From a virus, in IMG/VR virus record IMGVR_UViG_3300036835_000269, positions 1 through 21,612 of that record: 21,612 nucleotides of DNA; one strand, given 5' to 3'. The notes below the pieces were generated by a model. It made no database searches and had not been told where the DNA came from. It worked only from the letters and a program-made list of their open reading frames with translations. Of the stretch, positions 9,895 to 18,087 are shown piece after piece (within the stretch, counting starts at the first letter, position 1; each line of letters starts with the position of its first letter). The position numbers and the translations under genes were made by a program.

Positions 9895-11799
9895 CTAAGG
9901 GGAGCCGACCGGACTTCCGTCGTCGTCCCAGACGTTGCGCGTCCAGGTCAACTGGCTCGGCAGGCTGGCCGCGAAGCCGTAGTCGCCCGAGCGCGGGAAC
10001 AGGCCGTAGTCATCGGCGCCGCCCTGGCACACCCAGGTGCCGCCGCCGCCCTGGACCTCGTTGCCGTGGTCGCAGCGGGTGAACATGTTGTCCGTGATGA
10101 CCGCGGTCGCCTGGTCGCACCCATCCTTCGGGCAGACGCTCATCGCCCAACCGCCGCCGGCGAACAGGTTGCGCGTCGCCGTCAGGTGGTTGCCGTGGCC
10201 GCCGTCCATGAAGATGTTGGCGGTCTGGCCCTCCAGGTTGATGAACGTGTTGTGGGTCGCCGTGAACGTGTTGTCCCAGACGTAGATGTTCTCCAGGTGG
10301 TCGCCGGGGATCGCCTCGTGGATCTTCGAGTAGGAGTCCGAGATCACCGACCCCTCGCCGCAGAGGCAGAGGGAGTCCACGTCGCCGTGCTGGTAGAGGT
10401 GGTCGCCGAGGACCTTGCCGCCGAGCGTGTTCCGGATCGCGTGCTCGACACCCACGCCCGTGGGCGAAGTGAGTTCGACGTTGCTCACGGTCACTGTGTA
10501 GGGGCCGTTGACGTGGATGAGGCTGTTGCCGCACGCCGAGCCGCCGCAGCCCGAGTTGCCGGTGATGCGGCTGTTCTTGATCGTGACGTTCGCGTTGACC
10601 TCGATCGAGCCGGTGATGTCCTTGCCGTCGATCACCTGGCCGGGCGTGTTCGCGTTGATCGAGCCGGACGACGTGAGCGTCGTATCAGCCGGGACGCCGA
10701 CATTGCCGTAAGCCGGGTCGGGGAAGCCGCAGGAGCCGGGGCTGGTGAAGCAGGTCCCGGTCGGGGGCGGTTGTACCGGGTCGGTCTCGTCGTTGTCCGA
10801 CGAGTCCGCGCACCCCGGGTCGGCGGCGTCGATCTTGCCATCGCCGTCGTTATCCACGCCGTCGGCGCACTGGGCGACCGGGGGCTGCTCGACCGGGCAG
10901 CCCCCGTTGCTCGCGGGGCCTGGGTCGCTCGGGCAGTCGTCGCTCGAATCGGGCGTGCCGTCGCCGTCCGTATCGGTCGGGGGCGGTGTCTGATCCGCGG
11001 AGACCGTCACGTCGTGCTCGACGGTGGCCGTGTCGCCATCCGCATCGGTGACCGTCAGGCGGACATGCTTGACGCCGGCGCCGCTGAACGTGAAGTGGAG
11101 CGGGTCGCCAGAGCCGAGCGGCCACTGGGTGCCGCCAGCGCCGTCGCCACCATCGTCCTCCCAGGTGTATGTCAGCGGGGCGTCGCCGCCACCCTGCGCG
11201 TCGAACGTAACCTCCTGGCCGACGGTCGGATCGGAGGGACTGGACGTGAACGCCGCGCTCGCCGGCGTGTCCGCCGGCGGCGCGACATCGGCGTCGCCAT
11301 AGAGGCTGGCGCGACCGGTGCCGGACCAGGCGTGACCGACATCGTAGGAGGCGGGCAGCGAGGTGTGCGTGTCGCCCGACGACGTGTACGCGGTCTGCGT
11401 GCCACCGTCACGGAACCGGAGCGTGCCGGTGCTGCCCTCGGGCTGCAGGATGGCAGTCCAGTAGGTGGCGCCCGCCGTCACGTTGAACGGGGTGACGGCG
11501 CAGTCGTTCCAGCCGGACCGCGGTGCCGTCACCGTGCAGGAGCCCAGCTTCGCCGACGGGCGGCTGCCACCGGAATAGACGCCGACCTGAACCTGCGACG
11601 CGGTGCTCGAAGAATCGAGGTAGACGTGCAGCGTGTCGATCGGGCCGGTCGCGTCGGCGGGGGCGCTGAACGCCTCTGCCATCCCGACGGGGTTCGTGTC
11701 GAGGTTCGGCTTGATGCTCGAAACTCCGACGCCTGCGGCAGCCGTGCCGGGGAGCGCGAGGGCGAAGACCGTGCCCAGCGCGAGGATGAGTTTGCGCAT
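9895..11799 (-). CDS. Secreted-type beta-helix protein with PKD and thrombospondin-3 repeats
   Basis: 634 aa. Residues 1-22 are a typical Sec signal peptide (MRK, hydrophobic core LILALGTVFALALPG, AxA site TAAAG). Then a beta-sandwich (about 25-170), a PKD-like domain (about 178-270: FTSSPSDPTVGQEVTFDA... ending VRLTVTDADGDTATV), calcium-binding thrombospondin type-3 motifs (about 274-345: DTDGDGTPDSSDDCP and CADGVDNDGDGKID), and a right-handed parallel beta-helix (about 365-634) with NVTIKNSRITGN and NIYVWDNTFTATHNTFINLEG rungs, as in pectate-lyase-like folds. It resembles secreted actinobacterial proteins and may have been acquired from a host. It could be a tail spike/depolymerase or a secreted product. 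A full start-associated element precedes ATG 11799. Catalytic residues cannot be assigned. Confidence 0.75.
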   Translation of the reverse strand: MRKLILALGTVFALALPGTAAAGVGVSSIKPNLDTNPVGMAEAFSAPADATGPIDTLHVYLDSSSTASQVQVGVYSGGSRPSAKLGSCTVTAPRSGWNDCAVTPFNVTAGATYWTAILQPEGSTGTLRFRDGGTQTAYTSSGDTHTSLPASYDVGHAWSGTGRASLYGDADVAPPADTPASAAFTSSPSDPTVGQEVTFDAQGGGDAPLTYTWEDDGGDGAGGTQWPLGSGDPLHFTFSGAGVKHVRLTVTDADGDTATVEHDVTVSADQTPPPTDTDGDGTPDSSDDCPSDPGPASNGGCPVEQPPVAQCADGVDNDGDGKIDAADPGCADSSDNDETDPVQPPPTGTCFTSPGSCGFPDPAYGNVGVPADTTLTSSGSINANTPGQVIDGKDITGSIEVNANVTIKNSRITGNSGCGGSACGNSLIHVNGPYTVTVSNVELTSPTGVGVEHAIRNTLGGKVLGDHLYQHGDVDSLCLCGEGSVISDSYSKIHEAIPGDHLENIYVWDNTFTATHNTFINLEGQTANIFMDGGHGNHLTATRNLFAGGGWAMSVCPKDGCDQATAVITDNMFTRCDHGNEVQGGGGTWVCQGGADDYGLFPRSGDYGFAASLPSQLTWTRNVWDDDGSPVGSP

Positions 11800-12564: not shown

Positions 12565-14199
12565 TCACTGCCAGTAACCGCTCCCGTATAAAGACGGCCC
12601 GTCATCGTGCGCCGCGATCGAGCGCTTGATGTCCGCCCGGATCATCTTCTGCTGCGGCGACAGCCGATCCTCCATCGACTCCGCCTCGGGGATCGGCAGC
12701 GCCGTCACCGCGTAGCGCAGCGCGTCCGTCGCGTGGTCGTCGCGCTTCACCGGACGCTCAGGCGCGGCGTCCTCAGAGCGCCCGGTGGTCTTCCACCGGG
12801 CGCGGAGCAGCTGATCGATCAGCACCTCATTCGACGCCATGATGTGGATGCGGTTGCTGTCGAACAGCTGGCGCAGCGTGTTGATGCCCGGCCGCACGTC
12901 GTTGATCGCGATGCGGGTCTTCAGCCCCGCCTCCTGGTAGGCGAACTGGTCAGTCACGCCGGTCTGGTGGTCGGTGCGCTTGATCGCCGGGTCCGCCATG
13001 AAGATCGGAAGCGGGAGCACCCAGCGCTCGGCGGCGCGCTGGATCTCCTGCGCCACGCTGGAGATCACCGTCTTCTCGCAGATCACCTCGGGACCGACCC
13101 ACACGCCATCGTGGTCGAGGCCGACCCACACGGCTGCCGCCTGGTGGCGGAAGCCGGGGTCGAGGCCGCCGAGCAGCATCTGGCAGTGCGAGGACCGCAG
13201 CCGGTCGAGGACGATGCCGTCCGGCACGACGTGGCGGCTGCGAGCGAACTGCTCGTACACGCGGCCGGCCATCGAGACGAACAGGCCCTCCTGGCGGGCC
13301 TTGCGCTCCTCGTCGCTGGCGGCCATGGCTAGCGCGGCCGCCTTACCCTCTGGGTCGATGACCGGGTTGTCGTCCTGGTGGAACCGGTGGCCGTAGATCG
13401 GGAAGTCGATGCCCTGGAAGCTGATCGCGGCGAAGCCGGACTTGGCCGCCTCGCGGTCGGGCTGCTGCTCCTCCCACGGCTTCCACAGGTCGTCGTACAC
13501 CCAGGTCATGCCGTCCAGCGGTGTGAAGGTCATGCGCAGGTCGCCGTTGTAGTCGACGAGGCGCTGGATGCACTCGCCAAAGATCTCGCGCCCGTGGTCG
13601 TGCAGAGCTTCCTCATCAAAGTGAACGATGTGCAGCGGCACGCCCTGGAAGACCTCGACGTCCATGCCCTGCGTCATCATGCTGATGGTCGAGCCGTTCT
13701 TCAGGTGGAGCGTCGAGAACTCCTTGCTATACGCCTTCTCGACGCTGTTGCCGACCAGCTGCGACTTCGGCATCCACTGGCGCATGATGGGAAGATGAAT
13801 CTTCTCGACGGCGCGACCGGACACCGCGATCAGAAAGACCTGGATCGGCGGCTCCCAGCGCTTGTACGCCTGCAGGTGTGGCGGGACCGCCTCGCGATCA
13901 ATCACGTCGATGATGACCGAGATGTCGCCGGTCATCGTCTTGCCGGCGCGGTTGCCACCCGGCGCCAGCCGGAACTTCACAGGGCGGCCGTCGGGGGTCT
14001 TCCAGTTGCGCAGCCAGGCGTCCTGCGGGATGTGCGGGCGGCCGACGCCCTTCGGGTCGAGCGGGTCGAAGCGCCAGAGGGGATTGTTCTTCTGATTGCC
14101 AGCCATATCGGCCAACGCCCGAATGGCCTGCCGCCGCTCATGCGGCGGCAGGGCCTCTAATACGCCCTCGCGCAGCTTGAAGCGGGTCGCGTCACTCAC
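12565..14199 (-). CDS. terL: Terminase large subunit
   Basis: 544 aa, taken from GTG 14199, which overlaps the exonuclease stop (GTGA); the longer open frame upstream lies in coding sequence of another gene and is not used. ATPase: Walker A GGNRAGKT at 81-88, Walker B HIVHFDEE at about 190-197, coupling motif TFTPLDG near 224-230. Nuclease (RNase H fold): GGLDPG with D347, MADP with D403, and RDDHATDALRYAV with D487/D488/D492. The enzyme powers DNA packaging into the prohead through the portal and cuts the concatemer. The length is normal for the family. It sits between the DNA-metabolism genes and the surface block instead of directly before the portal. Confidence 0.95.
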   Translation of the reverse strand: MSDATRFKLREGVLEALPPHERRQAIRALADMAGNQKNNPLWRFDPLDPKGVGRPHIPQDAWLRNWKTPDGRPVKFRLAPGGNRAGKTMTGDISVIIDVIDREAVPPHLQAYKRWEPPIQVFLIAVSGRAVEKIHLPIMRQWMPKSQLVGNSVEKAYSKEFSTLHLKNGSTISMMTQGMDVEVFQGVPLHIVHFDEEALHDHGREIFGECIQRLVDYNGDLRMTFTPLDGMTWVYDDLWKPWEEQQPDREAAKSGFAAISFQGIDFPIYGHRFHQDDNPVIDPEGKAAALAMAASDEERKARQEGLFVSMAGRVYEQFARSRHVVPDGIVLDRLRSSHCQMLLGGLDPGFRHQAAAVWVGLDHDGVWVGPEVICEKTVISSVAQEIQRAAERWVLPLPIFMADPAIKRTDHQTGVTDQFAYQEAGLKTRIAINDVRPGINTLRQLFDSNRIHIMASNEVLIDQLLRARWKTTGRSEDAAPERPVKRDDHATDALRYAVTALPIPEAESMEDRLSPQQKMIRADIKRSIAAHDDGPSLYGSGYWQ

Positions 14200-14771
14200 G
14201 GTCGCCAGCGCTTCGGCGCCTTGAGCAAGCCACGATCGAGGAGCTCTTGACGTAGTTGCTTGTGCTGGAGAACGTCGTCCACCACACGCTTGCGCGTTCC
14301 CGCCCGCCCCTCCGGGGTTAGTCCGTTCGCCACGCGCCACTGGGCGCCGGTCATATGGTGCTTGTCGGCACCGACCCCGAACGTGATCGCCAGATTCTCC
14401 TGAGACTTGCCGAGATCCTTCACCGCGTACACGTCGGCTTGAGTATCCTGCACGAGAATCGACTTCATCATCGGTAGGCCCATGCGAATGCAGTGATCGT
14501 TGATGAGGGGCAGGTCGTGCTTGCGCAGGTAGTGCCCCGTCACCATGTCCGCCTCGTTGTACGCGGCCAGGAACTTGACAATCAGGTCGCACTCGTTACT
14601 GAGGTCTTGTTCCAGTAACTCGCAGTGAACCTTGTCCTGCCCGATCCACGACCAGGCGATGCCGGTGATCTGTGACTCTTTCCGCCATTCCGAGTAGTGC
14701 ATCGGTCGACACTCGGAGTCGAAGTCGAGGATGCGCAGTGGGCGGCGCTGGATGCTGAGCCTAATCGCCAT
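14196..14771 (-). CDS. DEDD-type 3'-5' exonuclease (RNase H-like)
   Basis: 191 aa. Motif ExoI is LDFDSE (D18, E20), ExoII is GHYLRKHDLPLIN (residues 79-91, D86), and ExoIII is around RVVDDVLQHKQL (D165/D166), where the usual Tyr is absent. The middle VQDTQADVYAVKDLGKSQENLAITFG resembles the DT...L..LA..LG region of polymerase B/DnaQ-type proofreading domains. Expected activity: removal of nucleotides from 3' ends using two metal ions. No polymerase domain is attached. Its start overlaps the preceding gene by 11 bases and its end overlaps terL by four, so it is produced together with the terminase. Whether it acts in replication, recombination or packaging is open. Confidence 0.75.
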   Translation of the reverse strand: MAIRLSIQRRPLRILDFDSECRPMHYSEWRKESQITGIAWSWIGQDKVHCELLEQDLSNECDLIVKFLAAYNEADMVTGHYLRKHDLPLINDHCIRMGLPMMKSILVQDTQADVYAVKDLGKSQENLAITFGVGADKHHMTGAQWRVANGLTPEGRAGTRKRVVDDVLQHKQLRQELLDRGLLKAPKRWRP

Positions 14772-14964
14772 CCGACCCAGCGATCTCGACGATGGTCGAA
14801 TCGATCACGAACCCACGCGTACCGGCGGCCTCGAGTTCCGCGACCTCGGGAGCGAGGGTGTCCAACTCCCAGTCGATTGCCTCAAGGCGCTGGCGAAGGC
14901 GAAACTCGGCCCGCCTTGCGGCGGCAAGCTTCTTCTTCGCGCGGACCGTCTCCACATCAGCCAT
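14761..14964 (-). CDS. Small coiled-coil protein
   Basis: 67 aa starting at ATG 14964, chosen because AAGGAG lies seven bases upstream; a longer frame to 15033 has no such site. The sequence is a Lys/Arg/Glu-rich helix (ETVRAKKKLAAARRAEFRLRQRLEAIDWELDTLAPEVAELEAAG) followed by a short beta part (RGFVIDSTIVEIAGSDGD). It overlaps the HTH gene by eight bases and the exonuclease by 11. No family is recognised; an accessory subunit of a neighbouring DNA enzyme is possible. Confidence 0.7.
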   Translation of the reverse strand: MADVETVRAKKKLAAARRAEFRLRQRLEAIDWELDTLAPEVAELEAAGTRGFVIDSTIVEIAGSDGD

Positions 14965-15346
14965 GCATGATCTCCTTGGTTTCGAGTTGAGCTTGCTCAA
15001 GCTGCTTGATGATGTCCGCGCGCTGGCGGCCAAGACTCCAGCGACGCTTCGACAGCCACCGGCTACTACCCAGTGACTGGTCCTGCGTGCGCGATACGGC
15101 TAGACGTCGCTCGCGAAACTCAGCGTCCGTCGCGTAACGCTCGCGACGGCGAGCTAGTTCGCGCTCGCGGTACTCGGGGGAACGCTTGCGTTCGCGGTGG
15201 CGTTCCGCGACGGCCGGATCCAGCATGCGACACACCGTGTAATGAGTCCACCCAACCTCGCGCCCGATCGCGCGATAGCTCAACCCCTTGTCGCGCAACT
15301 CCCGCATTCGGGCGCGCTCCTCATCGGTGACGGGGCGGCGCTTCAT
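14957..15346 (-). CDS. Helix-turn-helix DNA-binding protein, small terminase candidate
   Basis: 129 aa. Residues 7-43 (TDEERARMRELRDKGLSYRAIGREVGWTHYTVCRML) are a clear recombinase/resolvase-like helix-turn-helix. A very basic stretch follows (HRERKRSPEYRERELARRRERYATDAEFRERR), then a C-terminal helix (RQRADIIKQLEQAQLETKEIMHG). Position two genes before terL and the HTH-plus-helix layout suit a small terminase subunit, but a transcription regulator is equally possible. The start overlaps the upstream stop (ATGA), and a start-associated element is written into the end of the upstream gene. Confidence 0.75.
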   Translation of the reverse strand: MKRRPVTDEERARMRELRDKGLSYRAIGREVGWTHYTVCRMLDPAVAERHRERKRSPEYRERELARRRERYATDAEFRERRLAVSRTQDQSLGSSRWLSKRRWSLGRQRADIIKQLEQAQLETKEIMHG

Positions 15347-15738
15347 GCATCCACCGTGCCGCCGGCGTCGATCGAGGGCCGGTCGTCGATCAGCGTCCCG
15401 TGCGCCAGCGCGTCCAGGAAGACGTGGACGTTCGCGCCGATGTGAGCCATGTGGTGCTCGCCCGAATCGGGGTCAATGTCCTCGCCATCGTTCAGCGCGG
15501 CGATGTGCCGGCGCACCGCGGCCACGTAGGTCGTGATGCGGATCGCGTCCCGCCGCCAGTTGCGGGCGCCGTACTTCTCGGCGCCGTGCTGGAGGACGCG
15601 GCTGATCGGCTCGTCCGCCGCGCGCTCCAGGCGCTCGAGCGGGGCCTTGCCGTCCTTCTGCGCCTGGACGTACTTCGGGTTCTCGGCGTGGATCTCGTGA
15701 TGGGCGGCCATGAAGTTCGGTCCCATTGCGTGCGCCAT
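15343..15738 (-). CDS. dATP/dGTP diphosphohydrolase-family protein (MazZ-like, formerly DUF5664)
   Basis: 131 aa. The pattern HGAEKYGARNWRRD (51-64), YVAAVRRHIAALNDGEDIDP (71-90), SGEHHMAHIGANVHVFLDA (92-110) and DDRP (118-121) is that of the phage family named for dATP/dGTP diphosphohydrolase (N-terminal domain), in the MazG-like all-alpha pyrophosphohydrolase group. Members hydrolyse dNTPs to dNMP and diphosphate; in 2-aminoadenine phages MazZ supplies dGMP for base-Z synthesis. The family is also found in phages without base Z. GGAGGGG lies six bases before ATG 15738, which directly follows the upstream TAG. The neighbour upstream is an HD hydrolase like DatZ. Activity is inferred. Confidence 0.75.
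   Translation of the reverse strand: MAHAMGPNFMAAHHEIHAENPKYVQAQKDGKAPLERLERAADEPISRVLQHGAEKYGARNWRRDAIRITTYVAAVRRHIAALNDGEDIDPDSGEHHMAHIGANVHVFLDALAHGTLIDDRPSIDAGGTVDA
15347..15375 (-). promoter_or_regulatory. Start-associated element, copy E, inside the preceding coding region
   Basis: TCGATCGACGCCGG begins exactly 29 nt before ATG 15346, as in copies A-D, but here the element encodes the last residues (SIDAGGTVDA) of the diphosphohydrolase-family protein. The 3' half diverges; GCA-N7-TGC can form a three-pair stem, and GGTGG could act as a weak ribosome binding site. Confidence 0.6.
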
Positions 15739-16263
15739 CTATCGCCCCTCCAGGAGTTGCCGGTGTCGTGCAAGGAACTGCGCCTCGGCCGTGTCGGGCG
15801 TCAGCCCGAGCGGCCACGGCGGCGACCAGGTGGGGGGCTCCGTGTTCCCCCAGTACTCACCCAGCCCGCCGCTCGCCTTGAGTTCGTACGCCTCGATCCG
15901 CAGAGCCATCCTGTCCGCCCACTTCACGTCGGCCTCGGTCATCGTCGAGACCGGGAAGCCGAACGCGTCGGCGACCGCCTGGTCGATGCGCTTCGTGAGT
16001 CCCTTCCAGCCGATCAGGTGCTGCTTGAGCGGCGTCGGAATATCTCCCAGATACGCCTCGTGGCTGTCGTGATGCAGCGTCCCCAGTCCCGGGACCAGGG
16101 ACTCGCAGAGCAGCGCGTGCTCGGCGACCGAGTAGAAGCGCTCCGTATGCCCGTTGAACCGGCACATCTGCGACAGGGCGCGGGCGATGTCGACAACGTC
16201 GATCTGGTCAGCCGTCGGCTGGTCGTAGTCGAGGTACCCTCCGCTGTAGGTCTCCAGCTTCAC
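15739..16263 (-). CDS. HD-domain nucleotide phosphohydrolase (YfbR/DatZ-like)
   Basis: 174 aa from GTG 16263, with AAGGAG five bases upstream and a GTGA overlap with the endonuclease stop. The HD metal-binding set is visible: H49 (YSVAEHALL), H65-D66 (LHHDSHEAYLGDIPTPLK) and D117 (WADRMAL); QIDVVDIARALSQMCRFNGH near 20-39 is the conserved N-terminal part. Family members remove phosphates from deoxynucleotides; DatZ of cyanophage S-2L is a triphosphohydrolase that destroys dATP and is of similar size. Lying next to a MazZ-like gene, it fits control of the purine dNTP pool. Substrate specificity cannot be read, and many phages carry such genes without modified adenine. Confidence 0.85.
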   Translation of the reverse strand: MKLETYSGGYLDYDQPTADQIDVVDIARALSQMCRFNGHTERFYSVAEHALLCESLVPGLGTLHHDSHEAYLGDIPTPLKQHLIGWKGLTKRIDQAVADAFGFPVSTMTEADVKWADRMALRIEAYELKASGGLGEYWGNTEPPTWSPPWPLGLTPDTAEAQFLARHRQLLEGR

Positions 16264-16616
16264 GCTCGCTCCTTGAGGTAGGCGGCCGCAGCCAGCAGCC
16301 AGTCGGGGGTCATCCAGGCAGGGAGGGCGCGGTTGCAACGAGCGCACAGCAACCCTCGTGGCTTTCCTGATCGGTGATCGTGGTCGCGGTCCAGCCGGCG
16401 AGAGCCGGGGCCGCGCTTGCAGATCGCGCAGTGCTCGCCGCCGTTGAGCTCGGCGTACTGCTCGTAGGTGAGTTCGAGTGCCGCGTAGTGCCCCGCCCGC
16501 CTCTTCGGCGGGCGGGGCTTCCCGCAGCCCGAGCACTTCCGGGTACGTGGAAGGTTGTGGGTGCCGCAGACCGCGCCGGCGGACTGACGCCGGCAGGTCC
16601 ACCCGCGGGCTCTCAC
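16260..16616 (-). CDS. Endonuclease VII-like HNH nuclease with extra N-terminal zinc finger
   Basis: 118 aa from GTG 16616 (GTGA overlap with the preceding gene). The C-terminal part is a recombination-endonuclease-VII type His-Me finger: C63-x2-C66, RDHDHRSGKPRGLLC with D78/H79/D80/H81, C91-x2-C94, then NRALPAWMTPDWLLAAAAYL. T4 endonuclease VII resolves branched DNA before packaging; many phage relatives are nicking or structure-specific nucleases. The N-terminal 35 residues (W6, C8, C17, N21, C28, C31, then KPRPPK) match the W-C-C-N-C-C order of RanBP2-type zinc fingers except for a longer first Cys spacing. It lies just before the nucleotide hydrolases. Confidence 0.85.
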   Translation of the reverse strand: MRARGWTCRRQSAGAVCGTHNLPRTRKCSGCGKPRPPKRRAGHYAALELTYEQYAELNGGEHCAICKRGPGSRRLDRDHDHRSGKPRGLLCARCNRALPAWMTPDWLLAAAAYLKERA

Positions 16617-16786
16617 CGACGCTCGTCCTTCGTCGCGGCCAGCGAGCGGCGATTGAGCTCCAGGTCGCGATGCGCGGCCTCCCTGGTGTCGCGCAGCGGG
16701 CCGCACCAGCCGTCGCGGCCGGCGGCGTAGTAGTAGATCGGCGAGCCGTAGACATCCGACTGCAGGGTCTCGACGCGATCGGTCAT
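16613..16786 (-). CDS. Small unknown protein
   Basis: 57 aa starting at ATG 16786; GGAGG four bases upstream decides this start over a longer frame. Sequence TDRVETLQSDVYGSPIYYYAAGRDGWCGPLRDTREAAHRDLELNRRSLAATKDERR: a short beta hairpin-like part with aromatic residues and a charged helix. Overlaps both neighbours by four bases. No family recognised. Confidence 0.7.
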   Translation of the reverse strand: MTDRVETLQSDVYGSPIYYYAAGRDGWCGPLRDTREAAHRDLELNRRSLAATKDERR

Positions 16787-17078: not shown

Positions 17079-17473
17079 CACCAGCCCCCCTCGGTGTGGA
17101 CGAACTCGGTGCCGCGGAAGAACGCAGACAAAGCGACCGGCGGCTGCTCGATGCCGTTGACGTAGCGCGCGCCCTTGTTCGCCAGGAACATCACCTGCAC
17201 CAGACCGCGCTCGTCCTCCTGCAGGACGGCCACCACGGTGCGCACGCCCATGACGCCGGCGTCGGCGAGACGGTGCTTGGCGACCGTCAGCAGCTGCTCG
17301 CGCCGGGAGTCGTATCCGTCCGACCCCACCTGGGCGCGGACGGGCTCCAGCTTCTCGATCGCCTCGGGCGGCGCGTCCGGGCAGCGGACGGTCAGGAACG
17401 CCTCGTGGGGGGTGTCGAGCTCGCGGCGGTTCGACGCCTTGCCGCTGACCGGGTCGCCGGGCTTCCAGGTCAT
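17078..17473 (-). CDS. Unknown protein between the methyltransferase and small Cys-rich genes
   Basis: 131 aa, family not recognised. An alpha/beta pattern: MTWKPGDPVSGKASNRRELDTPHEAFLTVRCPDAPPEAIEKLEPVRAQVGSD, a helix REQLLTVAKHRLADAGVMGVRTVVAVLQEDERGLVQVMFLANKGARYVNG, and an aromatic end. No catalytic motif is evident. ATG 17473 overlaps the methyltransferase stop (ATGA) and its TGA touches the next start, so it is part of the same translational chain. Confidence 0.7.
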   Translation of the reverse strand: MTWKPGDPVSGKASNRRELDTPHEAFLTVRCPDAPPEAIEKLEPVRAQVGSDGYDSRREQLLTVAKHRLADAGVMGVRTVVAVLQEDERGLVQVMFLANKGARYVNGIEQPPVALSAFFRGTEFVHTEGGW

Positions 17474-18087
17474 GCCGTCACCGGCGCGTTCGCCTCGAAG
17501 ACCGCCCGGGCGAAGCCCATTGGTGTCGCACTGCGGAGATCTGCACGGTCGGCCGTCGGGGGGAGGCGATGCATCCGACTACCGTCCGTAGGCTCGACGG
17601 GGCGGGGCTCGGGCATCCGGAAGCCGCCGCCGGTCCACAGGCACGTCTTCTTCGTGTAGGTGTCGCCGGCGGGCTCCAGGTAGCCGCCGAAGTCGCAGGG
17701 GTCGAAGACGTGATCCGGCTTGCGGTGGTGGGAGGAGAGAACCCCGACGGGGTTCTCAATGAAGTACGGGGCGCCCGACCACTCCGCGGCGACCAGGCAA
17801 GCGTTGAACAGTTCAAGGGCGTCCGTCAGTAGCGGCAGCCCCTTGGCCTGGAAGTCTCGGGCGCCGCTGACCGCCAAGTGCGTGCAGGGCGGGAAGGCAG
17901 CCACGAGGGCGATCTCGCCGGCGGGCGGCGTCCATGAGCGGACGTCCCCCCAGACGAAGTTGACGCCGTCCTCGTGGCGGGCGCGGCGAATCGAGTGCTG
18001 GACGTCGACCGCGTAACACTCGTAGCCGGCGTCGGCCCATGGCCGCAGGAGGTTGCCGGTCAGGTCGCAGAGGGAGACGACGATCAC
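17470..18087 (-). CDS. C5-cytosine DNA methyltransferase-like protein (short form)
   Basis: 205 aa from GTG 18087, overlapping the upstream stop (GTGA). Motif I-like SLCDLTGNLLRPWADAGYECYAVD (5-28), motif IV AFPPCTHLAVSG with the catalytic-type Cys68, and motif VI-like FIENPVGVLSS (109-119) are all present. The part TKKTCLWTGGGF (145-156) is common in phage members of this family. The full target-recognition domain of host C5 methyltransferases is missing, as in many phage short forms, so the target and even the chemistry (5-methylation of C versus a modified reaction) are uncertain. Possible role: protecting phage DNA from restriction. It heads the nucleic-acid metabolism part of the leftward array. 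Confidence 0.8.
   Translation of the reverse strand: MIVVSLCDLTGNLLRPWADAGYECYAVDVQHSIRRARHEDGVNFVWGDVRSWTPPAGEIALVAAFPPCTHLAVSGARDFQAKGLPLLTDALELFNACLVAAEWSGAPYFIENPVGVLSSHHRKPDHVFDPCDFGGYLEPAGDTYTKKTCLWTGGGFRMPEPRPVEPTDGSRMHRLPPTADRADLRSATPMGFARAVFEANAPVTA

Follow-up and report, generated by a model that had tools for sequence, protein, structure and literature searches.

A recurrent HD phosphohydrolase–DUF5664 gene pair outside Z-phages and its possible role in dNTP-pool control

In phages with 2-aminoadenine (base Z) in their DNA, the HD-superfamily enzyme DatZ converts dATP to dA in one step. In S-2L DatZ (PDB 6ZPA), Q29 is strictly conserved, W20 and I22 form the sugar and base gates, and R19, K81 and K116 are the phosphate residues (PMC8065100). 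MazZ of Acinetobacter phage SH-Ab 15497 is a fusion of a DUF5664 and a DUF550/MazZ domain, with purZ and datZ beside its gene. The DUF5664 protein of Arthrobacter phage Wayne, a PurZ0 phage, hydrolyzes dATP, dUTP and dGTP to dNMPs in vitro, with the highest kcat for dATP and about half of that value for dUTP (PMC12884076). Another HD family, which includes the YfdR/Sb35 prophage proteins and Agrobacterium Atu1052, is annotated as deoxyribonucleoside 5'-monophosphate phosphatase. The assignment is tentative. YfdR, the best-studied member, has a much lower affinity for nucleotides than YfbR and was found to be a DnaA-binding protein, and initiation of replication is inhibited when yfdQRST is overexpressed (PMC4776307). 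Phage T5 encodes a dNMP phosphatase, Dmp, which reshapes the pool of dNTPs and has an influence on a dNTP-sensing host defence (PMC12265719).

The window analyzed here is a complete virus record of 21,612 bases (IMGVR_UViG_3300036835_000269), which is a genome fragment. A first-pass annotation had described two adjacent hydrolase genes in it as DatZ-like and MazZ-like and had raised base Z as a hypothesis, naming general dNTP-pool control as the safer reading. The coordinates, minus strand and adjacency of the two open reading frames were confirmed, and the genes and signals concerned are as follows.

16260..16706, minus strand: endonuclease VII-like gene
15739..16263, minus strand: HD phosphohydrolase of the YfdR/Atu1052 type (phrog_318), 174 aa, GTG start at 16263
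15742..15752 (approximate place), minus strand: Shine-Dalgarno-like GGAGGGG within the 3' end of the HD gene, before the TAG-ATG junction
15343..15738, minus strand: DUF5664 protein (PF18909), predicted dNTP pyrophosphohydrolase, 131 aa, homologue of the assayed Wayne protein
14957..15346, minus strand: helix-turn-helix protein (HTH_38)

The TAG stop codon of the HD gene abuts the ATG of the DUF5664 gene, and GGAGGGG lies upstream of this junction. The start of the HD gene is overlapped by the endonuclease VII-like gene through the four bases GTGA, and the stop of the DUF5664 gene by the helix-turn-helix gene through ATGA. Because of these overlaps and the TAG-ATG junction, the four genes probably form one translationally coupled run.

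The HD protein matched phrog_318 far beyond chance (E 3e-48, PHROG profile search), and its membership in this YfdR-type family was also indicated by the N-terminal family motif SG...D.IA..LS..CRF.GH..FYSVA(E/Q)H and by the HD residues. Its key residues are R35, H49, H65, D66, E69, K80, K114 and D117; H49, H65-D66 and D117 had been numbered correctly in the first-pass annotation and are invariant in a 32-member family alignment, and the catalytic residues are strictly kept in 89/89 YfdR-type members of a larger alignment. Since all metal and phosphate residues are present, the protein should be catalytically competent. Full-length identity with phage members of the family is about 40%, and they share with it the same signature, namely Y in place of DatZ Q29 and F in place of DatZ W20; the pairing with DUF5664 is, by comparison, a feature of the window. 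The AlphaFold model (mean pLDDT 90) resembled Atu1052 (PDB 2GZ4) with Z 21.9 over 169 residues, and the scores for DatZ (Z 8.1) and YfbR (Z 7.9) were far lower, followed by small alarmone hydrolases (Z about 4 to 5). The near-equality of DatZ and YfbR means that the fold does not tell a monophosphatase from a triphosphatase. NCBIfam assigned no family to either the HD protein or the DUF5664 protein, and PADLOC assigned nothing.

We compared the HD protein with DatZ by family profile, phylogeny and signature residues, and all three ruled out its identification as DatZ. The match to the DatZ family phrog_7076 had an E value of only 0.0014, compared with 6e-22 to 4e-75 for true DatZ controls. A tree of 105 proteins showed a 100%-supported split between 78 DatZ sequences and a group of the window protein with all 26 YfdR-type sequences. 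In the full alignment, the Q29 column is occupied by Q in all 78 DatZ sequences and by Y in 88 of the 89 YfdR-type sequences, the window protein having Y; at the gate positions it has F for W20 and a gap for I22. The window residues H49, H65, D66 and D117 do align with the S-2L metal ligands H34, H66, D67 and D119, and the phosphate residues R19, K81 and K116 also have their counterparts; however, these residues are not diagnostic of DatZ, because the YfdR-type family has them too.

The second protein matched Pfam PF18909 (dGTP_diPhyd_N, DUF5664) beyond chance (E 8e-25, 87 bits against a cut-off of 27), its residues 25-120 aligning with profile positions 5-99 of 99. The DUF550/MazZ domain (PF04447) was absent from it in the Pfam profile search, in which, with the same library, S-2L MazZ matched PF04447 and the SH-Ab 15497 protein matched both domains. 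Having PF18909 alone, the window protein is no MazZ of the S-2L kind, and the MazZ-like label does not hold; judged by its domain content, it corresponds to the partner with which DUF550 forms a fusion in some Z-phages. It is 38% identical over 91 residues to the N-terminal DUF5664 half of the SH-Ab 15497 protein, and 31% identical over 80 residues to the Wayne protein, which differs in an extra N-terminal part and in tree position. By its likeness to the latter, the window protein is predicted to be a dNTP pyrophosphohydrolase acting on dATP, dGTP and dUTP. No convincing solved relative was found by sequence, and the structures most similar to the AlphaFold model (mean pLDDT 91) scored poorly, at Z 4.6 or less; MtHISN2 (4.5) and E. 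coli MazG (3.0) lay among unrelated helical proteins, and these scores are diagnostic neither for nor against a MazG-type fold. In a DUF5664 tree of 113 rows, based on 100 columns and a quick method with the other rows picked by similarity to the window-headed alignment, the window protein was one of 82 rows in a 99%-supported set that contained no sequence from a true PurZ phage, and the 22 PurZ-phage sequences and Wayne were outside this set. We also observed that DUF5664 proteins match phrog_2252 (E 2e-31), labelled 'endolysin; inhibits RNA polymerase', a label that sits on DUF5664 genes in several public phage records (H42, H47, H64, H69) and looks like a propagated mis-annotation.

As the first-pass annotation had stated, no PurZ was found within the 21.6-kb record. 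Searches of related records gave the same result. PurZ was found in none of 50 other whole records with DUF5664, where two adenylosuccinate synthetase matches were both of the PurA type. These two apparent PurZ genes, in the records of L232 and L237, keep the PurA-type motif GFGDEGKG, and their PurZ-profile scores are 37-38 bits, as against 321-441 in PurZ loci; the records themselves (L260 and L261) are 80- and 64-kb viral contigs carrying a PurA-type adenylosuccinate synthetase (GDEGKG) together with DUF5664. PurZ was found in 0/22 phrog_318 records, and PurZ, DUF5664 and phrog_318 in 0/45 records with a related terminase, a run in which PF18909 matched no control genome, the same model having matched in another run. 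Conversely, in 80 PurZ loci from IMG/VR the HD proteins found all scored as DatZ and never as the window type. Seven PurZ loci (L070, L074, L075, L076, L079, L081, L083) have DatZ and a stand-alone DUF5664 with no DUF550 by profile, and in these Z-phages DUF5664 may take the role of MazZ.

The pair itself was found to recur. An HD gene followed on the same strand by an adjacent or overlapping DUF5664 gene is present, besides the window, in L169, L186, L204, L216 and L246, and the two genes follow each other closely in L187 and L221; the records of all seven loci yielded no PurZ. The DUF5664 domains of L187, L216 and L221 are nearly identical and should be counted once, and the other pair loci lie in different parts of the tree. 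L169 was identified by way of its HD gene and so adds no independent support for enrichment. The cultured Rhizobium phage RHph_TM3_3_14B has an HD gene (EVB67_020) and a DUF5664 gene (EVB67_023) separated by about 0.8 kb, upstream of which lies a MazG-like gene, and its complete genome has no PurZ by a search in which the SH-Ab 15497 control was matched. Roseobacter phage DSS3P8 was rejected as a further case, since its HD gene is followed by a gene other than DUF5664. Most phrog_318 loci have no DUF5664, so the HD protein also works without it. The pair occurs in PurZ-free phage contigs, and both families are found in ordinary phages, as the first-pass annotation had remarked; the families are known, and the recurrent coupled pair outside Z-phages is a modest new point.

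In its structural genes the window is similar to Arthrobacter phage Jasmine, Cellulosimicrobium phage DS1 and podovirus ctEqG8, whose genomes are 42-47 kb, suggesting that about half of the genome is probably missing from the record. None of these three has PurZ, DatZ, DUF5664 or a YfdR-type HD gene, and the HD-DUF5664 pair therefore looks like an accessory acquisition. No relative was found in single-protein scans of viral contigs with the HD protein, portal and terminase or in a scan of genome contigs with the DUF5664 protein, so that these scans revealed neither a host nor the other half of the genome, and a megablast comparison of 11.6 kb of window sequence with phages gave no match. A stand-alone DEDD 3'-5' exonuclease-like gene lies three genes after DUF5664 (14196-14771, minus strand), and distant homologues follow DUF5664 in L169 (11644-12384) and L176 (10637-11401); such an exonuclease is within 3 kb of DUF5664 in 7/87 loci, and a general link between the two is weak. 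Among the structural genes, 9895-11799 (minus strand) encodes a 634-aa PKD-domain protein, which could be a tail or adhesion protein.

We consider, with moderate confidence, that the HD and DUF5664 genes constitute a small module acting on the dNTP pool, probably with translational coupling, in a phage with ordinary DNA. The two family assignments, the intact catalytic residues, the coupling of the genes and the recurrence of the pair in PurZ-free phages are direct observations. By homology to the Wayne enzyme, DUF5664 would convert dATP, dUTP and dGTP to dNMPs and pyrophosphate, and the YfdR/Atu1052-type HD protein would then remove the last phosphate from the dNMP, leaving the deoxynucleoside. 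A joint route from dNTP through dNMP to nucleoside would be the simplest reading of a coupled pyrophosphohydrolase and HD phosphatase, although we infer the substrates, the order of the two steps and the purpose. The net conversion of dATP to dA by the pair would serve general trimming or clean-up of the pool, not the making of room for base Z. Three points count against this explanation: the substrate of the HD family is putative, YfdR being a weak nucleotide binder that was found to bind DnaA; the fold search was equivocal between a mono- and a triphosphatase; and most phrog_318 loci lack DUF5664. T5 Dmp, which would work like the window HD protein, is a precedent for a phage dNMP phosphatase, though a non-homologous one; it was rejected as a homologue because it belongs to a different PHROG (phrog_415) and showed no profile match.

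A less probable reading, to be taken seriously nonetheless, is that DUF5664 serves chiefly in the house-cleaning of dUTP or damaged dNTPs, the HD protein acting on the resulting dUMP or on another nucleotide, for example an alarmone. The activity of the Wayne enzyme on dUTP and the resemblance of the HD fold to small alarmone hydrolases are consistent with this, but the assayed enzyme is fastest with dATP (PMC12884076), and the alarmone hydrolases score far below Atu1052 and also below DatZ and YfbR. We find it rather unlikely that the HD protein acts chiefly by regulating host replication and is paired with DUF5664 through a common early-gene module and not through a common pathway. YfdR belongs to the same family, and its DnaA binding, its low affinity for nucleotides and the inhibitory effect of yfdQRST (PMC4776307) favour such a role, but the strict conservation of the catalytic residues in 89 family members argues for catalysis, and the coupling to a nucleotide hydrolase recurs in different phages.

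Clearance of a normal purine dNTP for a modified base other than Z, such as a deazaguanine, seems very improbable. Stenotrophomonas phage Bhz54 has a phrog_318 HD gene in the region of queE and queC, and the window has a methyltransferase-like gene at 17470-18087 (minus strand), whose 205-aa product matches phrog_757, labelled DNA methyltransferase (E 2.5e-63), and has an FPPCT motif; however, no hypermodification gene was recognized in the window, and most phrog_318 relatives are enterobacterial phages with no adjoining modification genes in the records examined. The least credible reading is that the phage makes Z DNA with the HD protein as DatZ, DUF5664 in the role of MazZ and PurZ and DpoZ in the missing half of the genome: such a half probably exists, and stand-alone DUF5664 does adjoin DatZ in some PurZ loci (L075, L076, L081, L083), but the HD protein lies outside the DatZ clade, lacks the DatZ signature and is of a type seen in no PurZ locus, the window DUF5664 groups with PurZ-free phages, and relatives by gene pair or by terminase have no PurZ.

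The base Z hypothesis is thus not supported, since the HD protein is not DatZ, the second protein has no DUF550 and PurZ is absent from the related whole records examined. What stands of the first-pass annotation is the gene pair and the more cautious interpretation as general dNTP-pool control, which we judge to be better than Z-DNA; the DatZ and MazZ identities do not stand. More tentatively, phages with ordinary DNA may carry the coupled route from DUF5664 to the YfdR-type HD protein to convert selected dNTPs to nucleosides, as a convergent, two-step counterpart of DatZ that would shape the dNTP pool in infection and perhaps help to avoid host immunity that senses or depletes dNTPs, a possibility that we regard as less likely than not.

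These results indicate that the domain labels DatZ-like and MazZ-like do not together predict Z-DNA, which corrects a tempting over-reading; what does predict it is the HD subfamily, distinguished by Q29 or Y, in combination with PurZ being present. The cultured phage RHph_TM3_3_14B offers a system for the joint biochemistry of the recurrent coupled pair.
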